A DNA stretch of 64,000 nt from Acidimicrobiales bacterium (GTDB lineage: Bacteria > Actinomycetota > Acidimicrobiia > Acidimicrobiales > Aldehydirespiratoraceae). A program made the translations under genes and the position numbers. Where the stretch lies: NCBI GenBank assembly GCA_033344915.1, contig JAWPML010000001.1, forward strand, positions 968,369 through 1,032,368, in the 5' to 3' direction. The notes beneath the pieces are model-generated. The model had not been told where the DNA came from, made no database searches, and saw only the letters and a program-made list of their open reading frames with translations. Below are positions 16,042-23,275 of this stretch, one piece after another; within the stretch, counting starts at the first letter, position 1, and the number at the start of each line of letters is the position of its first letter.

Positions 16042-17751
16042 TCAGTCGGCGCCCGGTTCGCGGCGGGTACGGCGTCGTTCGCTCTGCTGGGGGAGTTCCT
16101 CGAGCGGGGGCAGCCCCTTGCGCCGGCGCTTCTCCTCGTACTGCATCTCGTCGGCGGCCCGGAGGAGATCGCCGGGGGTCGCCATGTCGGCGGTGGCGAG
16201 CGCGATCCCGCACGACAACGATCGGTTGTGGCCGGTGCGGGCGAACAACTTGAGCGCGAGGTCCGTGATCGGCTGTGCACTCAGCATCCCGCCGCCGTCG
16301 AGGATCACGCAGAACTCGTCGCCACCGATGCGACACACGCTGGAGTTCTCGACCGTGGACGCGGCTTCCGACAGTGACCGCGCCGCGTCCACGAGGAGGG
16401 AGTCGCCGGCCGCGTGACCGTCGGTGTCGTTCACGACCTTGAGCCCGTCCACGTCGCACATGATGACCGCGACGTCCTGGCGGTCGACGGGCGGACGGGC
16501 GAAGACGTCGCGTAGACGCTCCTCGAGGACGCGCCGGTTGCCCAACCCCGTCAACGGATCCCGCAGGGCGAGCTCCTCGAACTCCGCGATCCGTTCGGCC
16601 TGGGTGACCGCCGCGGCGATGTGGGTGGCGACGAGTCGCAGGGTGGCGAGGTCGTCGTGGTCGAGGATGCCGCCACCGGCGGGGGTGCTCGCGATCACGA
16701 TTCCCCAGATGGTCTCGCCGATCACGATCGGCCAGGCGGCCTCGGAGCGGAGCCCGCGCTGGTAGAGCGAGACCACGCCGGGATCGTCGGCGCGGCCGTC
16801 GTCCGTCGCCCGCACGTAGCCCTGCCCCTCGAAGATCGATTCGAGTCCCGGCAGCTCGTCGGCCCCGCGCCGCTCCTCGGCCGGGAAGCGCTCCTTGCCG
16901 TTCAGATCCCCGACGTTGAGCAGGGTCTCGTATTCGCCGGCCTCGTGGTCGAGTCGACCGATCGTCACGCCGCTCGCCTGGAGGGCACGTCGGGCCTGCT
17001 CGGCGATCACCAGGAGGACGTCGGGCATCGAGTCGGCGGCCCGGACCGCGGCGCCGATCGACACGAGGGCTTCGACCGGCGAGTCGCGCTCCGGCGGAAC
17101 GAACCGCTCGAGGCTGTCGAGCACCTCGTCGAGCTCGATGTCGCTCTTGAGTCCCTCGCCCGACATGAGTTCGATGTTGGCGGCGGCGCCGAGATCCGGG
17201 TCGAGCGCGGTACCGAGCAGCTCGTCGACCCGACGCTGGCGCGCCGTCCAGTTCGGCGCCGCGCCCGGGTGCGGGTTGCCGACGAGGGTGGCCGCCAGCG
17301 CGAGGAGGCGGGCGGCGAGCGGGATGTCCGGGCCCCGCATGCCGTGGGGGCCGCCGCTGCCGTCCCAGCGTTCGTACTGGTGTCGGACGGTGCGGGCCGT
17401 GCCGCCGAGGCCCGGCAGACGGGTGAGGACGCTGGCCGACAGCACCGCGGACGCCGGGTCGGGAACGATGTCGACGGTGCCCACGGGGCGGACGTGGGTG
17501 AGCACGATGGAGATCTCGGCGACGAGAGCCCCGGTGACGGCGTCGACCCGGTCGGCGATGGGGCTGCCGGCCGCGACCGCGAGCCGGTCGACGAGGTAGG
17601 CGCGCAACGCGGCGCGGCGGGCGGCGGGCGGATCGAACACCTCGAGGGCGCGGCACAGCGAGGTGACCGCGGCCCGAGCCGGGCGGCTGAGCGGGCGCGA
17701 GCTCGCGTCGGAGGAGCGCTCGGTGGCGTCGGTGAACGACGGCTGCTCCAT
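16042..17751 (-). CDS. GAF-GGDEF diguanylate cyclase with a degenerate HD-GYP-like segment
   Basis: The 569-residue protein has three parts. Residues about 90-160 contain HQYERWDGSGGPHG (124-137) and GPDIPLAARLL, which look like the second half of an HD-GYP phosphodiesterase, but the metal-binding HD signature is not evident before it. A GAF-like sensor follows (about 230-390). The GGDEF domain has an intact RIGGDEF (476-480), LTGLGNRR and CDVDGLKVVND, so it should make cyclic di-GMP. No signal peptide or membrane helix is seen. ATG 17751 was chosen; ATG 17790 is in frame upstream. Confidence 0.88.
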   Translation of the reverse strand: MEQPSFTDATERSSDASSRPLSRPARAAVTSLCRALEVFDPPAARRAALRAYLVDRLAVAAGSPIADRVDAVTGALVAEISIVLTHVRPVGTVDIVPDPASAVLSASVLTRLPGLGGTARTVRHQYERWDGSGGPHGMRGPDIPLAARLLALAATLVGNPHPGAAPNWTARQRRVDELLGTALDPDLGAAANIELMSGEGLKSDIELDEVLDSLERFVPPERDSPVEALVSIGAAVRAADSMPDVLLVIAEQARRALQASGVTIGRLDHEAGEYETLLNVGDLNGKERFPAEERRGADELPGLESIFEGQGYVRATDDGRADDPGVVSLYQRGLRSEAAWPIVIGETIWGIVIASTPAGGGILDHDDLATLRLVATHIAAAVTQAERIAEFEELALRDPLTGLGNRRVLEERLRDVFARPPVDRQDVAVIMCDVDGLKVVNDTDGHAAGDSLLVDAARSLSEAASTVENSSVCRIGGDEFCVILDGGGMLSAQPITDLALKLFARTGHNRSLSCGIALATADMATPGDLLRAADEMQYEEKRRRKGLPPLEELPQQSERRRTRREPGAD

Positions 17752-17900
17752 GTCTGCTCGCTTCGCCCCTTCCTTGCCCGCAGTCCTCATCGATCGGCCC
17801 GCAGCGGTTGCTCCCTGTTGTAGCAGAGGACCATGCCACCACGGTGCGTCCGACCGACAACCACTATACGTGGCATCTCGGAGGCGTGGGAACCCTGTCG

Positions 17901-18470
17901 CTACGCAGCGTCGGCGTCGGTTGCGGCCAACGCCGCGATCCGCTCCCGCAGGCCGGACTCGCCGAGGGCTGCGGTGATCTCCACGCTCCCGTCGTCGTCG
18001 ATGAACGCGAAGCGGGGCTGGGTGCGGATCTCGTAACGGGCCCACACGTCGTTGCCGAGATCCTGGACGTGGGGGAACCCGCCGACGCCGGTGGTGGAGA
18101 TGAACTCCTCCATGTGGGGTACGGAATCGCTGGCGCCGGCGACGCCGATGATGTCCACCTGTCCGGCGAACTCCTGCTGCACCGATGCGACCGCACCGGC
18201 TTCACGACGACAGGTCGTTCACCAGGGGGCCCAGAACCACAGGACCAGGTCCTGCCCCTCGTAGTCGCCGGCGTCGAAGGTGCCGCCGCCGATGAGCTCG
18301 GCCTGGAAGTCGTGGGGCCACGCGTCCGGGCTCGCGCTCGCGTCCTGGCTCTCGCTCCCGGATGCGGCACCGTCGGTGTCTCCACCGCCACAGGCGGCCG
18401 CGAGGACGGCAGCGCCGACAACGCCGACGATGGCGACGACCAGGCGGCGGAAGCGACGAGATTGCGGCAC
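17901..18470 (-). CDS. Thioredoxin-like (TlpA/ResA-type) lipoprotein with in-frame UGA, candidate selenoprotein
   Basis: The frame continues on both sides of a TGA at 18221-18219. The product would be 189 residues: a lipoprotein signal ending VLAAAC (Cys27), a thioredoxin-like domain and WFWAPW-U-TTCRREA, with the UGA (residue 84) exactly where the first cysteine of CxxC belongs. The downstream part keeps thioredoxin features (FPHVQDL, TQPRFAFIDDDG, including the cis-Pro region). A hairpin with a GGUC loop lies about 26 bases after the UGA, as in bacterial SECIS elements. It would act as an extracytoplasmic thiol oxidoreductase. GTG 18470 follows a TAAGCT -10 box by eight bases; ATG 18500 is an alternative. 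A nonsense mutation is the rival explanation. No sel gene is in this window. Confidence 0.75.
18182..18199 (-). promoter_or_regulatory. SECIS-like hairpin after the in-frame UGA
   Basis: The RNA CCGGUGC-GGUC-GCAUCGG forms a seven-pair stem (one G-U) with a GGUC loop. A lower CCUG/CAGG helix can form outside it. The loop starts about 26 bases after the UGA, within the usual range for bacterial SECIS elements. The GGU loop resembles that of E. coli fdhF. Confidence 0.65.
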
Positions 18471-18478
18471 GGGGGTCA

Positions 18479-18484
18479 AGCTTA
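18479..18484 (-). promoter_or_regulatory. TAAGCT -10 box of the candidate selenoprotein gene
   Basis: TAAGCT ends eight bases before GTG 18470. It fits the leaderless pattern of the window and favours GTG 18470 over ATG 18500 as the start. Confidence 0.5.
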
Positions 18485-18538
18485 CGCATCGGGGCCCCAT
18501 ACTGGAGTCGCCCCGTCGACGAGACCCGGAACACTGCC

Positions 18539-18631
18539 ATGAGCACCCGCAAGCTGATCATCACTGCGCTCCTCACCGGCTTGCTCATCCTCGTCGCCGG
18601 GGCCGTCCAGCTCGTGATGATCATGCGATGA
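18539..18631 (+). CDS. Small single-pass membrane peptide
   Basis: The frame gives 30 residues starting MSTRKLIITALLTGLLILVA, which is nearly all one transmembrane helix after a short basic start. It lies between the divergent selenoprotein candidate and lpdA, 37 bases before the lpdA start. No clear ribosome site is visible. I cannot name it; its reality rests on its hydrophobic composition and position. Confidence 0.45.
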   Translation: MSTRKLIITALLTGLLILVAGAVQLVMIMR

Positions 18632-18653
18632 TGTCGCCCAGCGAGCTCACCTC

Positions 18654-18660
18654 AGGAGGT
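18654..18660 (+). promoter_or_regulatory. Shine-Dalgarno AGGAGGT deciding an ATC start of lpdA
   Basis: A full AGGAGGT ends seven bases before ATC 18668. The nearest canonical start in frame, GTG 18686, is 25 bases away, too far for this site. Confidence 0.6.
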
Positions 18661-18667
18661 TGGTCCC

Positions 18668-20074
18668 ATCGACGCACAACATGACGTGATCGTGATCGGT
18701 GGTGGCCCGGGTGGCTACGCCGCGGCCCTCTACGGCGCCGGCATCGGCCTCGACGTCGGCCTCATCGAGAAGTCGAAGGTCGGCGGCACGTGTCTCCATG
18801 TCGGCTGCATCCCGGCGAAGGAGCTGCTCGAGACCGCCCACGTCTTCCGCACGGTGCGTGACGCGGCGGACTTCGGCGTGAACGCATCGGCGCCGACCGT
18901 CGACTGGTCGGTCACGATGGACCGCAAGCAGACGATCGTCGATCAGCTGGCCGGTGGGGTCACCAGCCTGCTCAAGGGACGCAAGGTCACCATCTACGAC
19001 GGCGCCGGTTCCCTCGGCGCGTCGCACGAGGTCCGGGTGACCGGCGGCGAGAGCGGAGACCAGACCCTGACCGCGCCGGCCGTCATCCTCGCGACCGGTT
19101 CGCTTCCGCGGACGATCCCGGGCTTCGAGGTGGACGGTCGGTTCGTGCTGACCTCCGACGAGGTGCTCTCGATCGACGAACTGCCGGCGCGGGCCGCCGT
19201 GATCGGTGGCGGCGCCATCGGCTGCGAGTTCGCGTCGATGATGGGCGATCTCGGCGTGGACGTCACGATCCTCGAGGCGATGCCGCAGATCCTCACCGGC
19301 TGCGACGCCGACGCCACGAAGGTCGTGGAGCGGTCGTTCAAGAAGCGGGGCATCACCGTTCGCACCGGCGTGATGGTGTCGGGCCACACGCCCGACCCGT
19401 CCGGTACCCACACGACGGTCGCCTTCGGCGAGGGCGAGTCCGTCGATGTCGAAACGATCGTCATGTCCGTCGGACGCCGCCCCTTCGCCGACCTGCTCGG
19501 GCTCGACGGCACCGGCGTGGCCGTCGACGAGCGCGGGTTCGTGGAGGTCGACGACCGGTGTCGCACCGGGGAACCGGGGGTCTGGGCCGTCGGTGACCTG
19601 ATCAACACCCCGCAGCTCGCCCACGTCGCGTTCGCCGAGGGGATGCTGGCCATCCGTGACATCCTCGGCGAGGCACCGGCTCCGTTGGACCACCACGGCA
19701 CCCCCTGGTGCATCTACTGCCACCCGGAGGTCGCCTTCGCCGGTCACACCGAGGAGTCGGCGCGGGCCGCCGGGTTCGACGTGGTCACCTCCTCGCACCG
19801 GTTCATCGGCAACGGCCGGGCCAAGATCGTCGGCGACACGGACGGCATCGTGAAAGTGATCGCGGAGAAGCGGTCCGACGGCACCGCCGGGCGGATCCTC
19901 GGCGTCCACATGGTGGGGCCCTGGGTCACCGAGCAACTCGGGCAGGGCTATCTCGCCGTCAACTGGGAGGCGACGGTGGACGACGTCGCCGCCTTCATCC
20001 AGCCCCACCCGACCATGTCGGAGCTCTTCGGGGAGACGGTCCTGTCGCTGACCGGACGTTCACTCCACGGATGA
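18668..20074 (+). CDS. lpdA: Dihydrolipoyl dehydrogenase (E3)
   Basis: The 468-residue flavoprotein reoxidises dihydrolipoamide in 2-oxoacid dehydrogenase complexes, reducing NAD. The FAD-binding GGGPGG (11-16) sits in HDVIVIGGGPGGYAA. The redox disulfide is Cys42/Cys47 in GGTCLHVGCIPAKELL. GGGAIGCEFASMMGDLG binds NAD, and HPTMSE near the C-terminus holds the catalytic His-Glu pair. The best start is ATC 18668: it follows AGGAGGT at proper spacing and keeps the whole first beta strand (DAQHDVIVIGG). GTG 18686 would cut that strand. E2 and lipBA follow. Confidence 0.95.
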   Translation: MDAQHDVIVIGGGPGGYAAALYGAGIGLDVGLIEKSKVGGTCLHVGCIPAKELLETAHVFRTVRDAADFGVNASAPTVDWSVTMDRKQTIVDQLAGGVTSLLKGRKVTIYDGAGSLGASHEVRVTGGESGDQTLTAPAVILATGSLPRTIPGFEVDGRFVLTSDEVLSIDELPARAAVIGGGAIGCEFASMMGDLGVDVTILEAMPQILTGCDADATKVVERSFKKRGITVRTGVMVSGHTPDPSGTHTTVAFGEGESVDVETIVMSVGRRPFADLLGLDGTGVAVDERGFVEVDDRCRTGEPGVWAVGDLINTPQLAHVAFAEGMLAIRDILGEAPAPLDHHGTPWCIYCHPEVAFAGHTEESARAAGFDVVTSSHRFIGNGRAKIVGDTDGIVKVIAEKRSDGTAGRILGVHMVGPWVTEQLGQGYLAVNWEATVDDVAAFIQPHPTMSELFGETVLSLTGRSLHG

Positions 20075-20100: not shown

Positions 20101-20166
20101 ATGCTCATCGCGTCCGAACCCGCCGCGTCGCGACGCTCGAGAGAGAGGAACAAATGGCTGACGTGA
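20101..20166 (+). CDS. Possible leaderless leader ORF overlapping the E2 start
   Basis: The 21-codon frame starts MLIASEPAASRR and stops at TGA 20164-20166, 13 bases inside the E2 gene. Its ATG is seven bases after a TACCCT -10 box. Translation through it would bring ribosomes over the E2 ribosome site (GAGAGAGG). The peptide has no obvious attenuation codons; four arginines cluster near its middle. Whether it is translated is unknown. Confidence 0.35.
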   Translation: MLIASEPAASRRSRERNKWLT

Positions 20167-21572
20167 CGATGCCCCAGCTGGGCGAGACGGTCACCGAGGG
20201 AACGATCACCCGCTGGTTCAAGCAGGTCGGGGATGAGGTCGCACTCGACGAGATCCTGTTCGAGATCTCGACCGACAAGGTCGACAGCGAGGTGCCGTCT
20301 CCCGCCGCGGGCACGCTCACGGAGATCCTCGCCGTCGAGGGTGACCTGGTCGAGGTCGGCCAGGTACTCGCCCGCATCGGCGACGCCGATGCTGCGCCGG
20401 CCGCTCCCGCCGCGCCCGAACCAGCGGCCGCGGCGCCTCCGGCCGCCGCCGCGCCGCCGCCACCCCCGCCGCCCCCGCCGCCACCCGCCCCCGAACCGGC
20501 ACCGGCCCCGGCCCCCGCGCCCGCCCCCGAGCCCGCGGCTGCTCCCGAGGCGGCTCCGGTCGCGTCCGCCGAACCCGGGCTGGTGCTCTCGCCCGTCGTC
20601 CGGCGCCTGATCAACGATCACGGGCTCGACCCCGCGGCGATCACCGGCACCGGGATCGGCGGCCGGATCACCCGAGCCGATGTCGAACAGGTCATACGGG
20701 ACGGCTCGTCCGAGGCCCCCGCCGCGCCGGCTGCGCCCGCCGCGTCGCCGCCCCAACCGGACCCGCAAGCTGAACCCGAGCCGGCCCCCGCCGCGAGCAA
20801 CGAGCCCGCCCCGGCACCGCCGGCCGAGACCGCGGCGCCGGTGCCCGCGGTGGCCGCGCGCGACGAGGTCGTGCCGCTGAACAACATTCGCACCCGCACC
20901 GCCGAGCACATGGTCATGTCGAAGCAGACATCGCCCCACGTGCTCACCGCCATGGAGGTGGACTACGAGCGGGTCGAGCACGTCCGTCGGGCCGTCAAGG
21001 CCGGCTGGAAGGCCGAGGAGGGGTTCAGCCTCACCTATCTGCCGTTCATTGCCCGTGCCGTGATCGACGCCCTGCGGGAGTATCCGCACCTCAACGCGAG
21101 CTTCGGCGGAGACCATCTGGTCGTGCACGACGACGTCAACCTCGCGATCGCGGTCGACATCGACTTCGAGGGCCTGCTCGCCCCCGTCATCAAGAGCGCC
21201 GACGGCAAACGCCTGCGCCAGATCGCCCGCGACATCGTCGATGTCGCGTCCCGCACCCGCACGAAGCAGCTGCGCCCGGACGATCTCTCCGGCGGCACCT
21301 TCACGCTGACCAACGCCGGCCAGTACGGCACGATGATGCAGTTCCCGATCATCAACCAGCCGCAGGTCGCGATCCTCTCGACCGACGGCGTGCAGCGCAA
21401 GCCGGTCGTCGTCACCGACGAGTACGGCAACGAGTCGATCGCGATCCACTCGGTCGGCGTGCTGGCGATGGCCTGGGATCACCGGGCGTTCGACGGCGCC
21501 TACGCGGCGGCCTTCATGCATCGCGTGAAGGAGATCATCGAGACGCGTGACTGGGAGGCGGAGGTCCGCTGA
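20154..21572 (+). CDS. Dihydrolipoamide acyltransferase (E2) of a 2-oxoacid dehydrogenase complex
   Basis: The 472-residue protein has one lipoyl domain (1-80) with lipoyl-lysine Lys42 in STDKVDSEV, a long Ala/Pro linker with a run of eleven prolines, a peripheral subunit-binding domain (about 143-180; LSPVVRRLINDHGLDP), a second linker and a catalytic domain with His443 and Asp447 in DHRAFDG. It transfers acyl groups to CoA. Whether the complex is pyruvate, 2-oxoglutarate or branched-chain type cannot be decided because E1 is not here. The start has GAGAGAGGAACAA in front. It lies between lpdA and lipBA. Confidence 0.95.
   Translation: MADVTMPQLGETVTEGTITRWFKQVGDEVALDEILFEISTDKVDSEVPSPAAGTLTEILAVEGDLVEVGQVLARIGDADAAPAAPAAPEPAAAAPPAAAAPPPPPPPPPPPAPEPAPAPAPAPAPEPAAAPEAAPVASAEPGLVLSPVVRRLINDHGLDPAAITGTGIGGRITRADVEQVIRDGSSEAPAAPAAPAASPPQPDPQAEPEPAPAASNEPAPAPPAETAAPVPAVAARDEVVPLNNIRTRTAEHMVMSKQTSPHVLTAMEVDYERVEHVRRAVKAGWKAEEGFSLTYLPFIARAVIDALREYPHLNASFGGDHLVVHDDVNLAIAVDIDFEGLLAPVIKSADGKRLRQIARDIVDVASRTRTKQLRPDDLSGGTFTLTNAGQYGTMMQFPIINQPQVAILSTDGVQRKPVVVTDEYGNESIAIHSVGVLAMAWDHRAFDGAYAAAFMHRVKEIIETRDWEAEVR
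20395..20560 (+). repeat. Low-complexity Pro/Ala codon tract in the E2 linker
   Basis: Runs of CCG, CCC, CCA and GCC codons encode the flexible linker, including eleven consecutive prolines (about 20456-20488). It is a compositional repeat within the gene, not a mobile element. Confidence 0.9.
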
Positions 21573-21583
21573 CCGCCGCCGCC

Positions 21584-23275
21584 GTGGCCGAGCGGACCCT
21601 GCGGGTCCGGTGGCTCGGACGGGTCGCGTATCGAGATGCGCTGGCCCTGCAACGCGCCCTGTTCGCGGGTGACGGGGATCACCTGCTCCTGCTGGAGCAC
21701 CCCCACACGATCACCACGAGCAAGCGCACCCCCGATGCCCATCTCCTGCTCGATCGTGACGAGATCGCGGCGCTCGGCGGCGATGTCGTGGCGACCGATC
21801 GTGGCGGCGACATCACGTACCACGGGCCGGGCCAGCTCGTCGGGTACCCGATCATCGACCTGCCGGGCCGACGCGGGGGCGGCATGGCCGACACCGCCGC
21901 CTACGTCGACGGGCTCGAACAGGTCCTGATCGACGTCCTCGCGGATCTCGGTCTCGCCACGGGCCGCCTGCCCCGGTGTACGGGTGTGTGGGTCGACGTC
22001 GACGGCCTGCGGCCGCGCAAGATCGCGGCCATCGGCGTGCGCATCGCCCGGGCCCGCACGATGCACGGCTTCGCCCTCAACGTCGACCCCGATCTGGCGT
22101 GGTTCGATCGCATCGTGCCCTGCGGGATCACGGACAAGGGGGTCACCTCGCTGGCCCGCGAGGGCATCGAGATCGACCCGGCCGAACTCGAGCACCGGAT
22201 CGTCGCGGCGTTCGCGGCGCGGTTCACGCCGGACGCCGCCATCGACCGGGCGGGCGTCGCCCACCGCGTCGCCCCAGCCGACCTCGCGCCGTTCACCCGC
22301 GGGGAGGGAGCAGGCACGCCGGTCGGTCGTGACGGCGTCGGATTCGGCGCGGAGGCCGACGGCACCTCCCCCCGGCTGATTGCCCGGCTCGACGATGCCG
22401 GTGCCACCTCCCATTCGCCGGTGCGGCTCCGGGCCCGCAAGCCGGAGTGGATGCGGGTGCCGCTCGACACCGGCCCCGAGTACCGACGCATCAAGGCGAC
22501 CATGCGGGAGCTCGACCTCGTGACGGTCTGTGAGGAAGCCGGCTGCCCCAACATCTCCGAGTGCTGGAACGACGGCACGGCGACCTTCATGGTGCTCGGC
22601 GAGCGCTGCACCCGGGCCTGCGGGTTCTGTGTGGTCGACACGAGCAAGCCGGCGCCCCCCGATCCCGGTGAGCCCGGCCGCCTCGCCGACGCCGTCGAAC
22701 GCATGGGCCTGCGCCACGCGGTCGTCACCATGGTCGCCCGCGACGACCTCGAGGACGGCGGCGCCACTCACGTGGCCGCCGTCGTCGCCGCCATCCGCGA
22801 CCGGGTGCCGGGCTGCCAGGTCGAGGTGTTGGTGTCCGACGTGAAGGGGGACGACGCCGCGCTGGCCACGCTGTTCGCCGCCGCGCCCGACGTGTTCAAC
22901 CACAACATCGAGACGGTCGCCCGACTCCAGCGGGCGGTGCGCCCGTCGGCCGGTTACGCCCGGAGCCTCTCGGTGCTGGCGCGGGCCAAGGACGCGGGGT
23001 TGACCACGAAGTCGTCGATCATCGTCGGGATGGGGGAGTCGTACGACGAGGTCGTCCAGACGCTCGGCGACCTCGCCGCCGTCGGGGTCGACATCGTCAC
23101 GATCGGCCAGTACCTGCGGCCGACCTCGCACCACCTGCCCGTCGCCCGCTGGTGGGAGCCGGCGGTGTTCGACGAATGGAAGGCGCTCGGTGAGGCGGTG
23201 GGCATCGCCCATGTGGAGTCGTCGCCGCTGACGCGATCCAGCTACCACGCCCGCGACGCGGCGGCCGCGATCTAG
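21584..23275 (+). CDS. LipB-LipA fusion: octanoyltransferase joined to lipoyl synthase
   Basis: One 563-residue frame joins both steps of lipoate assembly. Residues 1-215 are LipB: GGDITYHGPGQLVGYPI, the lysine of RPRKIAAIGVRI, and catalytic Cys180 in IVPCGITDKGVTSL. After a linker of about 60 residues, LipA follows with its auxiliary cluster motif CEEAGCPNISEC (316, 321, 327), radical-SAM CTRACGFC (342, 346, 349) and C-terminal RSSYHA. LipB moves octanoate from ACP to the E2 lysine; LipA inserts two sulfurs. GTG 21584 is the canonical start; an in-frame CTG at 21569 lies four bases after GGAGGT and overlaps the E2 stop. Confidence 0.95.
   Translation: MAERTLRVRWLGRVAYRDALALQRALFAGDGDHLLLLEHPHTITTSKRTPDAHLLLDRDEIAALGGDVVATDRGGDITYHGPGQLVGYPIIDLPGRRGGGMADTAAYVDGLEQVLIDVLADLGLATGRLPRCTGVWVDVDGLRPRKIAAIGVRIARARTMHGFALNVDPDLAWFDRIVPCGITDKGVTSLAREGIEIDPAELEHRIVAAFAARFTPDAAIDRAGVAHRVAPADLAPFTRGEGAGTPVGRDGVGFGAEADGTSPRLIARLDDAGATSHSPVRLRARKPEWMRVPLDTGPEYRRIKATMRELDLVTVCEEAGCPNISECWNDGTATFMVLGERCTRACGFCVVDTSKPAPPDPGEPGRLADAVERMGLRHAVVTMVARDDLEDGGATHVAAVVAAIRDRVPGCQVEVLVSDVKGDDAALATLFAAAPDVFNHNIETVARLQRAVRPSAGYARSLSVLARAKDAGLTTKSSIIVGMGESYDEVVQTLGDLAAVGVDIVTIGQYLRPTSHHLPVARWWEPAVFDEWKALGEAVGIAHVESSPLTRSSYHARDAAAAI

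Follow-up and report, generated by a model that had tools for sequence, protein, structure and literature searches.

A predicted selenocysteine-containing, DsbF/MPT53-like lipoprotein encoded opposite lpd in an Acidimicrobiales bacterium

Among the thiol-disulfide oxidoreductases that work outside the cytoplasm, the closest described systems to the protein discussed here are DsbF (Rv1677, PDB 3ios) and DsbE/MPT53 (Rv2878c, PDB 1lu4) of Mycobacterium tuberculosis. Each consists of a single thioredoxin-like extracytoplasmic domain with a CxxC active site, set in a WFWAPW or WFWTPW motif, and a Q-P loop. Both are described as oxidizing hirudin and not reducing insulin, and their redox state has been proposed to depend on DsbD (Rv2874) or on Rv2877c (PMC3853704).

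Selenocysteine (Sec) forms of the thioredoxin fold have likewise been described. Table 1 of PMC13188914 lists families in which UxxC replaces CxxC: a redoxin family protein (PF08534, UxxC), a thiol-disulfide isomerase-like family (cd02966, UxxC) and a Prx-like thiol:disulfide oxidoreductase (PF00578, UxxC/UxxU). The same source gives the features expected of a bacterial SECIS element (bSECIS), namely a loop of 3–9 nt, a stem of 4–16 bp, a G in the first two loop positions, a distance of 16–37 nt from the UGA and a minimum free energy of at most -7.5 (PMC13188914). As for Actinobacteria, a 2006 survey reports 12 selenoprotein families with 19 proteins, Symbiobacterium being counted there (PMC1794560), and in the main text of the 2026 review PMC13188914 no term starts with actinobacter, actinomycet or DsbE.

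Here we describe a gene in a 64,000-nucleotide stretch of DNA, in the following referred to as the window, from an Acidimicrobiales bacterium whose genome comprises 4.48 Mb in a single contig. Its 189-residue frame is interrupted by a single internal stop, a TGA within WFWAPW-stop-TTC (Table 1). The preliminary description of this DNA, made from the sequence alone, had noted this break and proposed a candidate selenoprotein; the coordinates hold, and the proposal is supported by the Sec machinery of the genome, a recurring TGA, Cys-containing relatives, a covarying hairpin and purifying selection. We put the probability at roughly 93% that the UGA is decoded as Sec and that the product serves as a thiol-disulfide oxidoreductase, both taken jointly and irrespective of the direction of electron flow. 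The UGA splits the gene into two entries in the list of open reading frames, and its start is uncertain (the GTG at 18470 or the in-frame ATG). At the N-terminus, the protein carries the sequence VLAAAC, which we take to be a lipobox. Scanning positions 17750–18800 for promoters and terminators returned no terminator and a single promoter-like match, which lies on the downstream side of the gene.

Table 1. Coordinates of the predicted Sec gene, its elements and its conserved neighbors within the window.
Feature	Position	Strand	Remarks
Predicted Sec-containing thioredoxin-like lipoprotein gene	17901..18470	-	189 aa if UGA is decoded as Sec; in-frame ATG at 18500 as alternative start
TGA within the frame, predicted to encode selenocysteine (U84 of UxxC)	18219..18221	-	
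TGT, Cys87, second redox residue of U84-T-T-C87	18210..18212	-	invariant in 20-row alignment
Probable lipoprotein signal peptide, lipobox ...VLAAA-C27	18390..18470	-	sequence; similar N-termini in several relatives
Q151-P152 invariant pair, probable cis-proline loop	18015..18020	-	20-row alignment; alignment to 3ios and 1lu4
bSECIS-like apical stem-loop CCGGUGC-GGUC-GCAUCGG	18182..18199	-	seven pairs; loop GGUC 18189–18192, 26 nt after UGA
lpd, dihydrolipoyl dehydrogenase, head-to-head neighbor	18686..20074	+	domain/profile matches; neighborhood comparison
sucB-type 2-oxoacid dehydrogenase E2, conserved neighbor	20154..21572	+	domain/profile matches; neighborhood comparison
Fused lipoyl ligase/transferase and lipoyl synthase (LipB-LipA), conserved neighbor	21584..23275	+	domain matches; neighborhood comparison

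The claim that coherent thioredoxin-fold sequence lies on both sides of the UGA is borne out by two matches that span residue 84, that of the Pfam AhpC-TSA domain (residues 54–164) and that of 3ios in a phmmer search against the PDB (E 3.2e-24, residues 54–182). The protein scores over the cut-offs of both PF00578 and PF08534, and no model of NCBIfam release 20 scores it over its cut-off. In the AlphaFold2 model, built from a 20-row alignment, the mean pLDDT is 84.9; the ten-residue blocks from 51 to 180 reach 93–98, and the signal peptide and linker score low. With this model, Foldseek ranks 3ios (DsbF, E 4.1e-16, rmsd 1.0 Å) first among the solved structures, followed by 1lu4 and then ResA. 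The alignment shows no variation at residue 84 (entered as C), at C87 or in the Q151-P152 pair, and this pair presumably forms the cis-proline loop that faces the active site. We also considered an assignment to ResA or TlpA proper and rejected it (NF002854, 51.1 of 170 bits; NF047696, 30.5 of 230 bits). The ResA-like WAxxUGC selenoprotein (NF041054) and the UGC TlpA family share the TlpA/ResA-like fold and a Sec in the active site, but have UGC instead of UxxC, and NF041054, which has a cut-off of 300 bits, gives the protein a score of 20.4. Judged by sequence and predicted fold, it is thus nearest to actinobacterial DsbF and DsbE (MPT53), closer than to ResA or TlpA. Given that it features UxxC and a SECIS-like hairpin where these enzymes feature CxxC, it should be regarded as a Sec homolog expected to work like DsbE/DsbF rather than as a plain member of their group.

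To what extent such a protein is new was also touched upon in the preliminary description, whose author knew of no described TlpA/ResA-type lipoprotein of this kind from this lineage. This claim stands in part. Among the papers listed by our literature search, including those for Acidimicrobiales or Ilumatobacter with selenocysteine, none concerned the branch with the FWAPW-U motif, although this does not prove absence. UxxC redoxin selenoproteins as a kind, however, are already known, because UxxC families on PF00578, PF08534 and cd02966 are catalogued in Table 1 of PMC13188914, with which we compared the FWAPWUxxC branch at the level of families; and, as described above, the likeness is to DsbF/MPT53 rather than to ResA/TlpA.

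To survey the relatives, we searched the 51 genomes of the bacterial family, including that of the host. At a threshold of E 1e-15, which weaker Cys relatives in the family may fail to reach, 31 of the 51 have a match, and an in-frame TGA is present at all 34 matched places; a second stop, seen in 11 of these, is the gene's own end as judged by the open frames. The codon at the aligned site was read in 70 loci, among them L015, a duplicate hit that fell on the neighboring L013 gene and was dropped. TGA follows FWAPW in 26 sequences, including the query and a paralog from its own genome, and FWAPH in seven; it is also found at the aligned site of one remote MAG protein (L090). TGC or TGT follows FWAPW in 32 more distant relatives among the matches listed, which come from other Actinomycetota and some Acidimicrobiia, and also occupies the aligned site of three paralogs in the host genome. 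Homologs with Sec and with Cys codons, which the preliminary description had suggested looking for, are thus both at hand. The numbers 26 and 32 (the latter among the matches listed, and including L088, which has a disturbed frame and was omitted from the tree) are not frequencies, because the scan for relatives used patterns such as WFWAPWCT, which favor Cys forms. A maximum-likelihood tree of 68 of the 70 rows, based on few columns, groups 25 FWAPW-U proteins with a support of 93/75, leaves L050 unplaced and shows the FWAPH-U proteins as a separate group. On this tree, the Sec label requires at least 3 changes, compared to a mean of 23.0 after shuffling, with the direction of the changes not given by the tree. 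A plasmid search with the Sec protein returned 24 records, all of less than 60% identity (10 of the 24 listed).

The genomic context of the FWAPW-U genes is unusual and conserved; in the window, the gap between the gene and lpd measures 185–215 bp. In 19 of 20 neighborhoods, fetched from 19 genomes, the gene lies head-to-head with lpd, which is followed by sucB except where a contig end cuts the stretch, and the lipBA fusion lies beyond sucB wherever the fetched stretch extends far enough. The exception, L128, is a paralog that groups with the host's own copy at 4260428. We then queried 29 genomes without a match, or with only FWAPH-U or unlinked copies, for the lpd locus (E 1e-120); in the 24 that have it, no thioredoxin-like relative was found upstream of lpd at E 1e-3, one of them offering only 65 bases of upstream sequence. 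In the lpd loci examined, the position next to lpd therefore holds either the Sec form or nothing that was found. Some further observations concern this region. The LipB-LipA fusion of the window comprises 563 residues, with the lipoyl ligase/transferase at 16–211 and the lipoyl synthase domains (LIAS_N, Radical SAM) at 283–496, and in L117 a 607-residue frame matching the fusion is found in the same place. Directly downstream of the Sec gene, positions 16042–17778 of the minus strand encode an HD-GAF-GGDEF protein, probably a diguanylate cyclase. One genome (G027) harbors two FWAPW-U genes (L112 and L131), each beside its own lpd-sucB-lipBA set, which reflects either duplication or assembly contamination (4% contamination listed).

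We propose that the product is a thiol-disulfide oxidoreductase from the DsbF/MPT53-like branch of the thioredoxin superfamily that is exported, probably with a lipid anchor, and has Sec in place of the attacking Cys (U84-T-T-C87). SelB, carrying Sec-tRNA-Sec, would bind the GGUC stem-loop downstream of the UGA and decode it as Sec; SelB-dependent insertion is suggested by the machinery, the conserved element and the Cys relatives together. Outside the cytoplasm, the enzyme would then exchange electrons with the disulfides of secreted or membrane proteins via a Sec-Cys bond, and the electrons might flow either way. Their likeliest source would be a membrane protein of the CcdA type whose gene lies at another place in the genome, a proposal that we consider slightly favored and derive from the CcdA-like genes next to the Cys relatives: among the matches listed, such a gene lies just downstream in 29 of the 32 FWAPW-Cys relatives. 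The host genome encodes two CcdA-like proteins, one next to a further UxxC gene, within a region for cytochrome oxidase, and the other next to a CxxC paralog.

A serious, if less probable, alternative is that the selenoprotein acts as an extracytoplasmic oxidant that forms disulfides, as M. tuberculosis DsbE and DsbF do in vitro, and is not kept reduced by CcdA. Its nearest solved relatives are described as oxidants (PMC3853704). Furthermore, no CcdA-like gene was found in the window or in any of the 20 Sec neighborhoods. The adjacency of a CcdA-like gene, the usual supply of reductant, to most of the listed Cys relatives speaks against this alternative, as does the chemistry of the active site, since a bond between Sec and Cys should be more reducing than one between two Cys residues. 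We assign a distinctly smaller chance to the idea that Sec is more than a casual substitute for Cys here, and that the protein is an extracytoplasmic redox enzyme with an obligate need for selenium, linked to the metabolism of lipoyl groups or to its control and served by a partner other than CcdA. This idea builds on the observation that the Sec form is found apart from a CcdA neighbor, opposite a lipoyl/2-oxoacid dehydrogenase operon, and never as Cys in the loci examined.

These considerations presuppose that the UGA is read through. At first sight, the in-frame TGA resembles a nonsense mutation, and the gene could be a pseudogene, contain a sequencing error or yield only a short N-terminal product, all the more so as the hairpin by itself is within chance. 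Yet the TGA is not a one-off base error, as other genomes have it at the matching site, with Cys there in distant relatives. Likewise, the preliminary description had named decay after the stop as a finding that would refute a selenoprotein, but the sequence past the UGA does not decay and is under purifying selection: in nine of ten chosen pairs of near relatives, dN/dS downstream of the UGA is 0.08–0.36, while the tenth pair is saturated and its dS not computable. In light of this selection, the recurring TGA and the full Sec machinery, we reject a pseudogene or base error, and regard a true stop as very improbable.

The Sec machinery, whose presence the preliminary description had left to be checked, is complete with respect to the four components it named. 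The tRNA-Sec gene scores 64 bits against the Rfam cut-off of 47, and ARAGORN agrees, giving the anticodon tca. SelA (385 bits), SelB (276 bits, encoded next to SelA) and SelD (360 bits) all exceed their curated cut-offs, and SelD has an in-frame TGA of its own, in HGAG-U-GCK. Such scores are not general, as only some of 14 control genomes reach the same cut-offs (tRNA-Sec in 5, SelA in 1, SelB in 2 and SelD in 2). Across the bacterial family, SelA has a match in 50 of the 51 genomes, in 49 of them over the cut-off.

The hairpin, described from the outset as a seven-pair stem with a GGUC loop starting about 26 bases past the UGA, has these properties, and also agrees in its geometry with the bSECIS features listed above (loop of 4 nt, 7–8 pairs, GG, 26 nt, -12.0 kcal/mol). 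Taken alone, it is not clearly beyond chance. When 3000 60-mers were drawn at random from the window, 15% of them passed the same scan at -7.5 kcal/mol and 2.7% attained the -12.0 of the query, whose fold has a z-score of -1.23, with 23 of 200 shuffles equally good. In a strict scan for uninterrupted stems at -7.5 kcal/mol, nine of the 26 FWAPW-U sequences fail and six of the 32 Cys relatives (among the matches listed) pass; one stem pair is broken in seven of the 26. We thus rejected the hairpin as proof by itself.

The conservation of the hairpin, by contrast, is beyond chance. The GGUC loop is found at the same place in all 26 FWAPW-U sequences, and also in a further copy (L131). In these 26, 172 of 182 stem cells are paired, a count that none of 2000 permutations of synonymous codons within columns attains (165.1, sd 1.3), whereas the 32 Cys relatives among the matches listed have 102 of 224 paired; all seven pairs are formed in 16 of the 26 Sec sequences and in none of these 32 Cys sequences. 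A pair counter gives 94.5% paired versus 83.6% after shuffling (0 of 500 as high), and 11 cells are changed on both sides of the stem versus 2.5 after shuffling (0 of 500 as high); kinship among the sequences weakens all of these stem-pairing counts. With stem partners slid against each other, 28–48% are paired. Two of the five pair measures stay within the shuffled range, namely the pairs showing a double change (2; equaled in 242 of 500 shuffles) and the additional pair types (5; equaled in 54 of 500).

The host genome also contains other candidate Sec genes. Of its 16 AhpC-TSA matches, 15 exceed the cut-off, and six contain a TGA. Together with two paralogs and SelD, at least nine genes have a TGA at a redox-type position as judged by motif: a TPG-U peroxiredoxin, two with SW-U-GC, one each with VW-U-PPC, HTY-U-VAC and APH-U-PTC, two with APW-U-xxC, and SelD. 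This number is a lower bound, as the search covered redoxin relatives and SelD. With a limit of -7.5 kcal/mol, five of the nine pass a simple scan for SECIS elements and four fail. GGUC recurs in the post-UGA loop of the paralog at 4260428, and the loops of SelD and the UPPC redoxin read GGUCG. A single SECIS common to all Sec genes is nevertheless unsupported, as the FWAPH-U sequences have another hairpin without a GGUC loop. These sequences form a second family of Sec lipoproteins with the motif FWAPH-U-PTC, represented in the host by L012 (at 489632) and elsewhere by L051–L056; the L012 hairpin has a GAGC-AGUUC-GCUC core and a loop 34 nt from the UGA. Two larger redoxins with SW-U-GC, L103 (3025218) and L110 (2697893), resemble the catalogued UGC TlpA selenoproteins in their motif. 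The peroxiredoxin (L096, 1768570; TPG-U-TKES) has no passing hairpin after its UGA (best +0.2 kcal/mol) and possibly uses an unusual SECIS. Lastly, the region at 4258000–4277500 (L092) encodes COX1, COX2, COX3, a UbiA-type prenyltransferase, a multicopper oxidase, a CcdA-like protein and four thioredoxin-like proteins, two of them with an active-site TGA.

The frame would stay open with any residue at the UGA, but it is highly unlikely that suppression or an altered genetic code places Cys, Trp or Gly there, in view of the Sec-type tRNA with anticodon tca, the covarying SECIS-like element, the ordinary terminal TGA of the host's own paralog L014 and the redox-type positions of the UGA in all nine genes checked, a sample biased by the searches for redoxin relatives and SelD in which they were found.

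In summary, the new details of this system are the head-to-head linkage of the Sec gene with lpd-sucB-lipBA, the linkage of most of the listed Cys relatives with a CcdA-like gene and the presence in one genome of nine or more genes that have a TGA at a redox-type site. A study in ISME J (2016) refers to organisms with at least six selenoprotein genes as selenoprotein-rich and states that 78.3% of them are anaerobic (PMC5029168); the host of the nine or more genes described here also carries a cytochrome oxidase cluster with COX1, COX2 and COX3 domains. A gene caller that halts at the UGA would yield a signal-peptide fragment and a headless domain, so that enzymes of this type are easily missed. 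Finally, the 26 TGA and 32 TGC/TGT sequences (the latter among the matches listed) represent natural Sec/Cys pairs of one exported enzyme in contrasting neighborhoods, and thereby allow the benefit of selenium outside the cytoplasm to be addressed directly.
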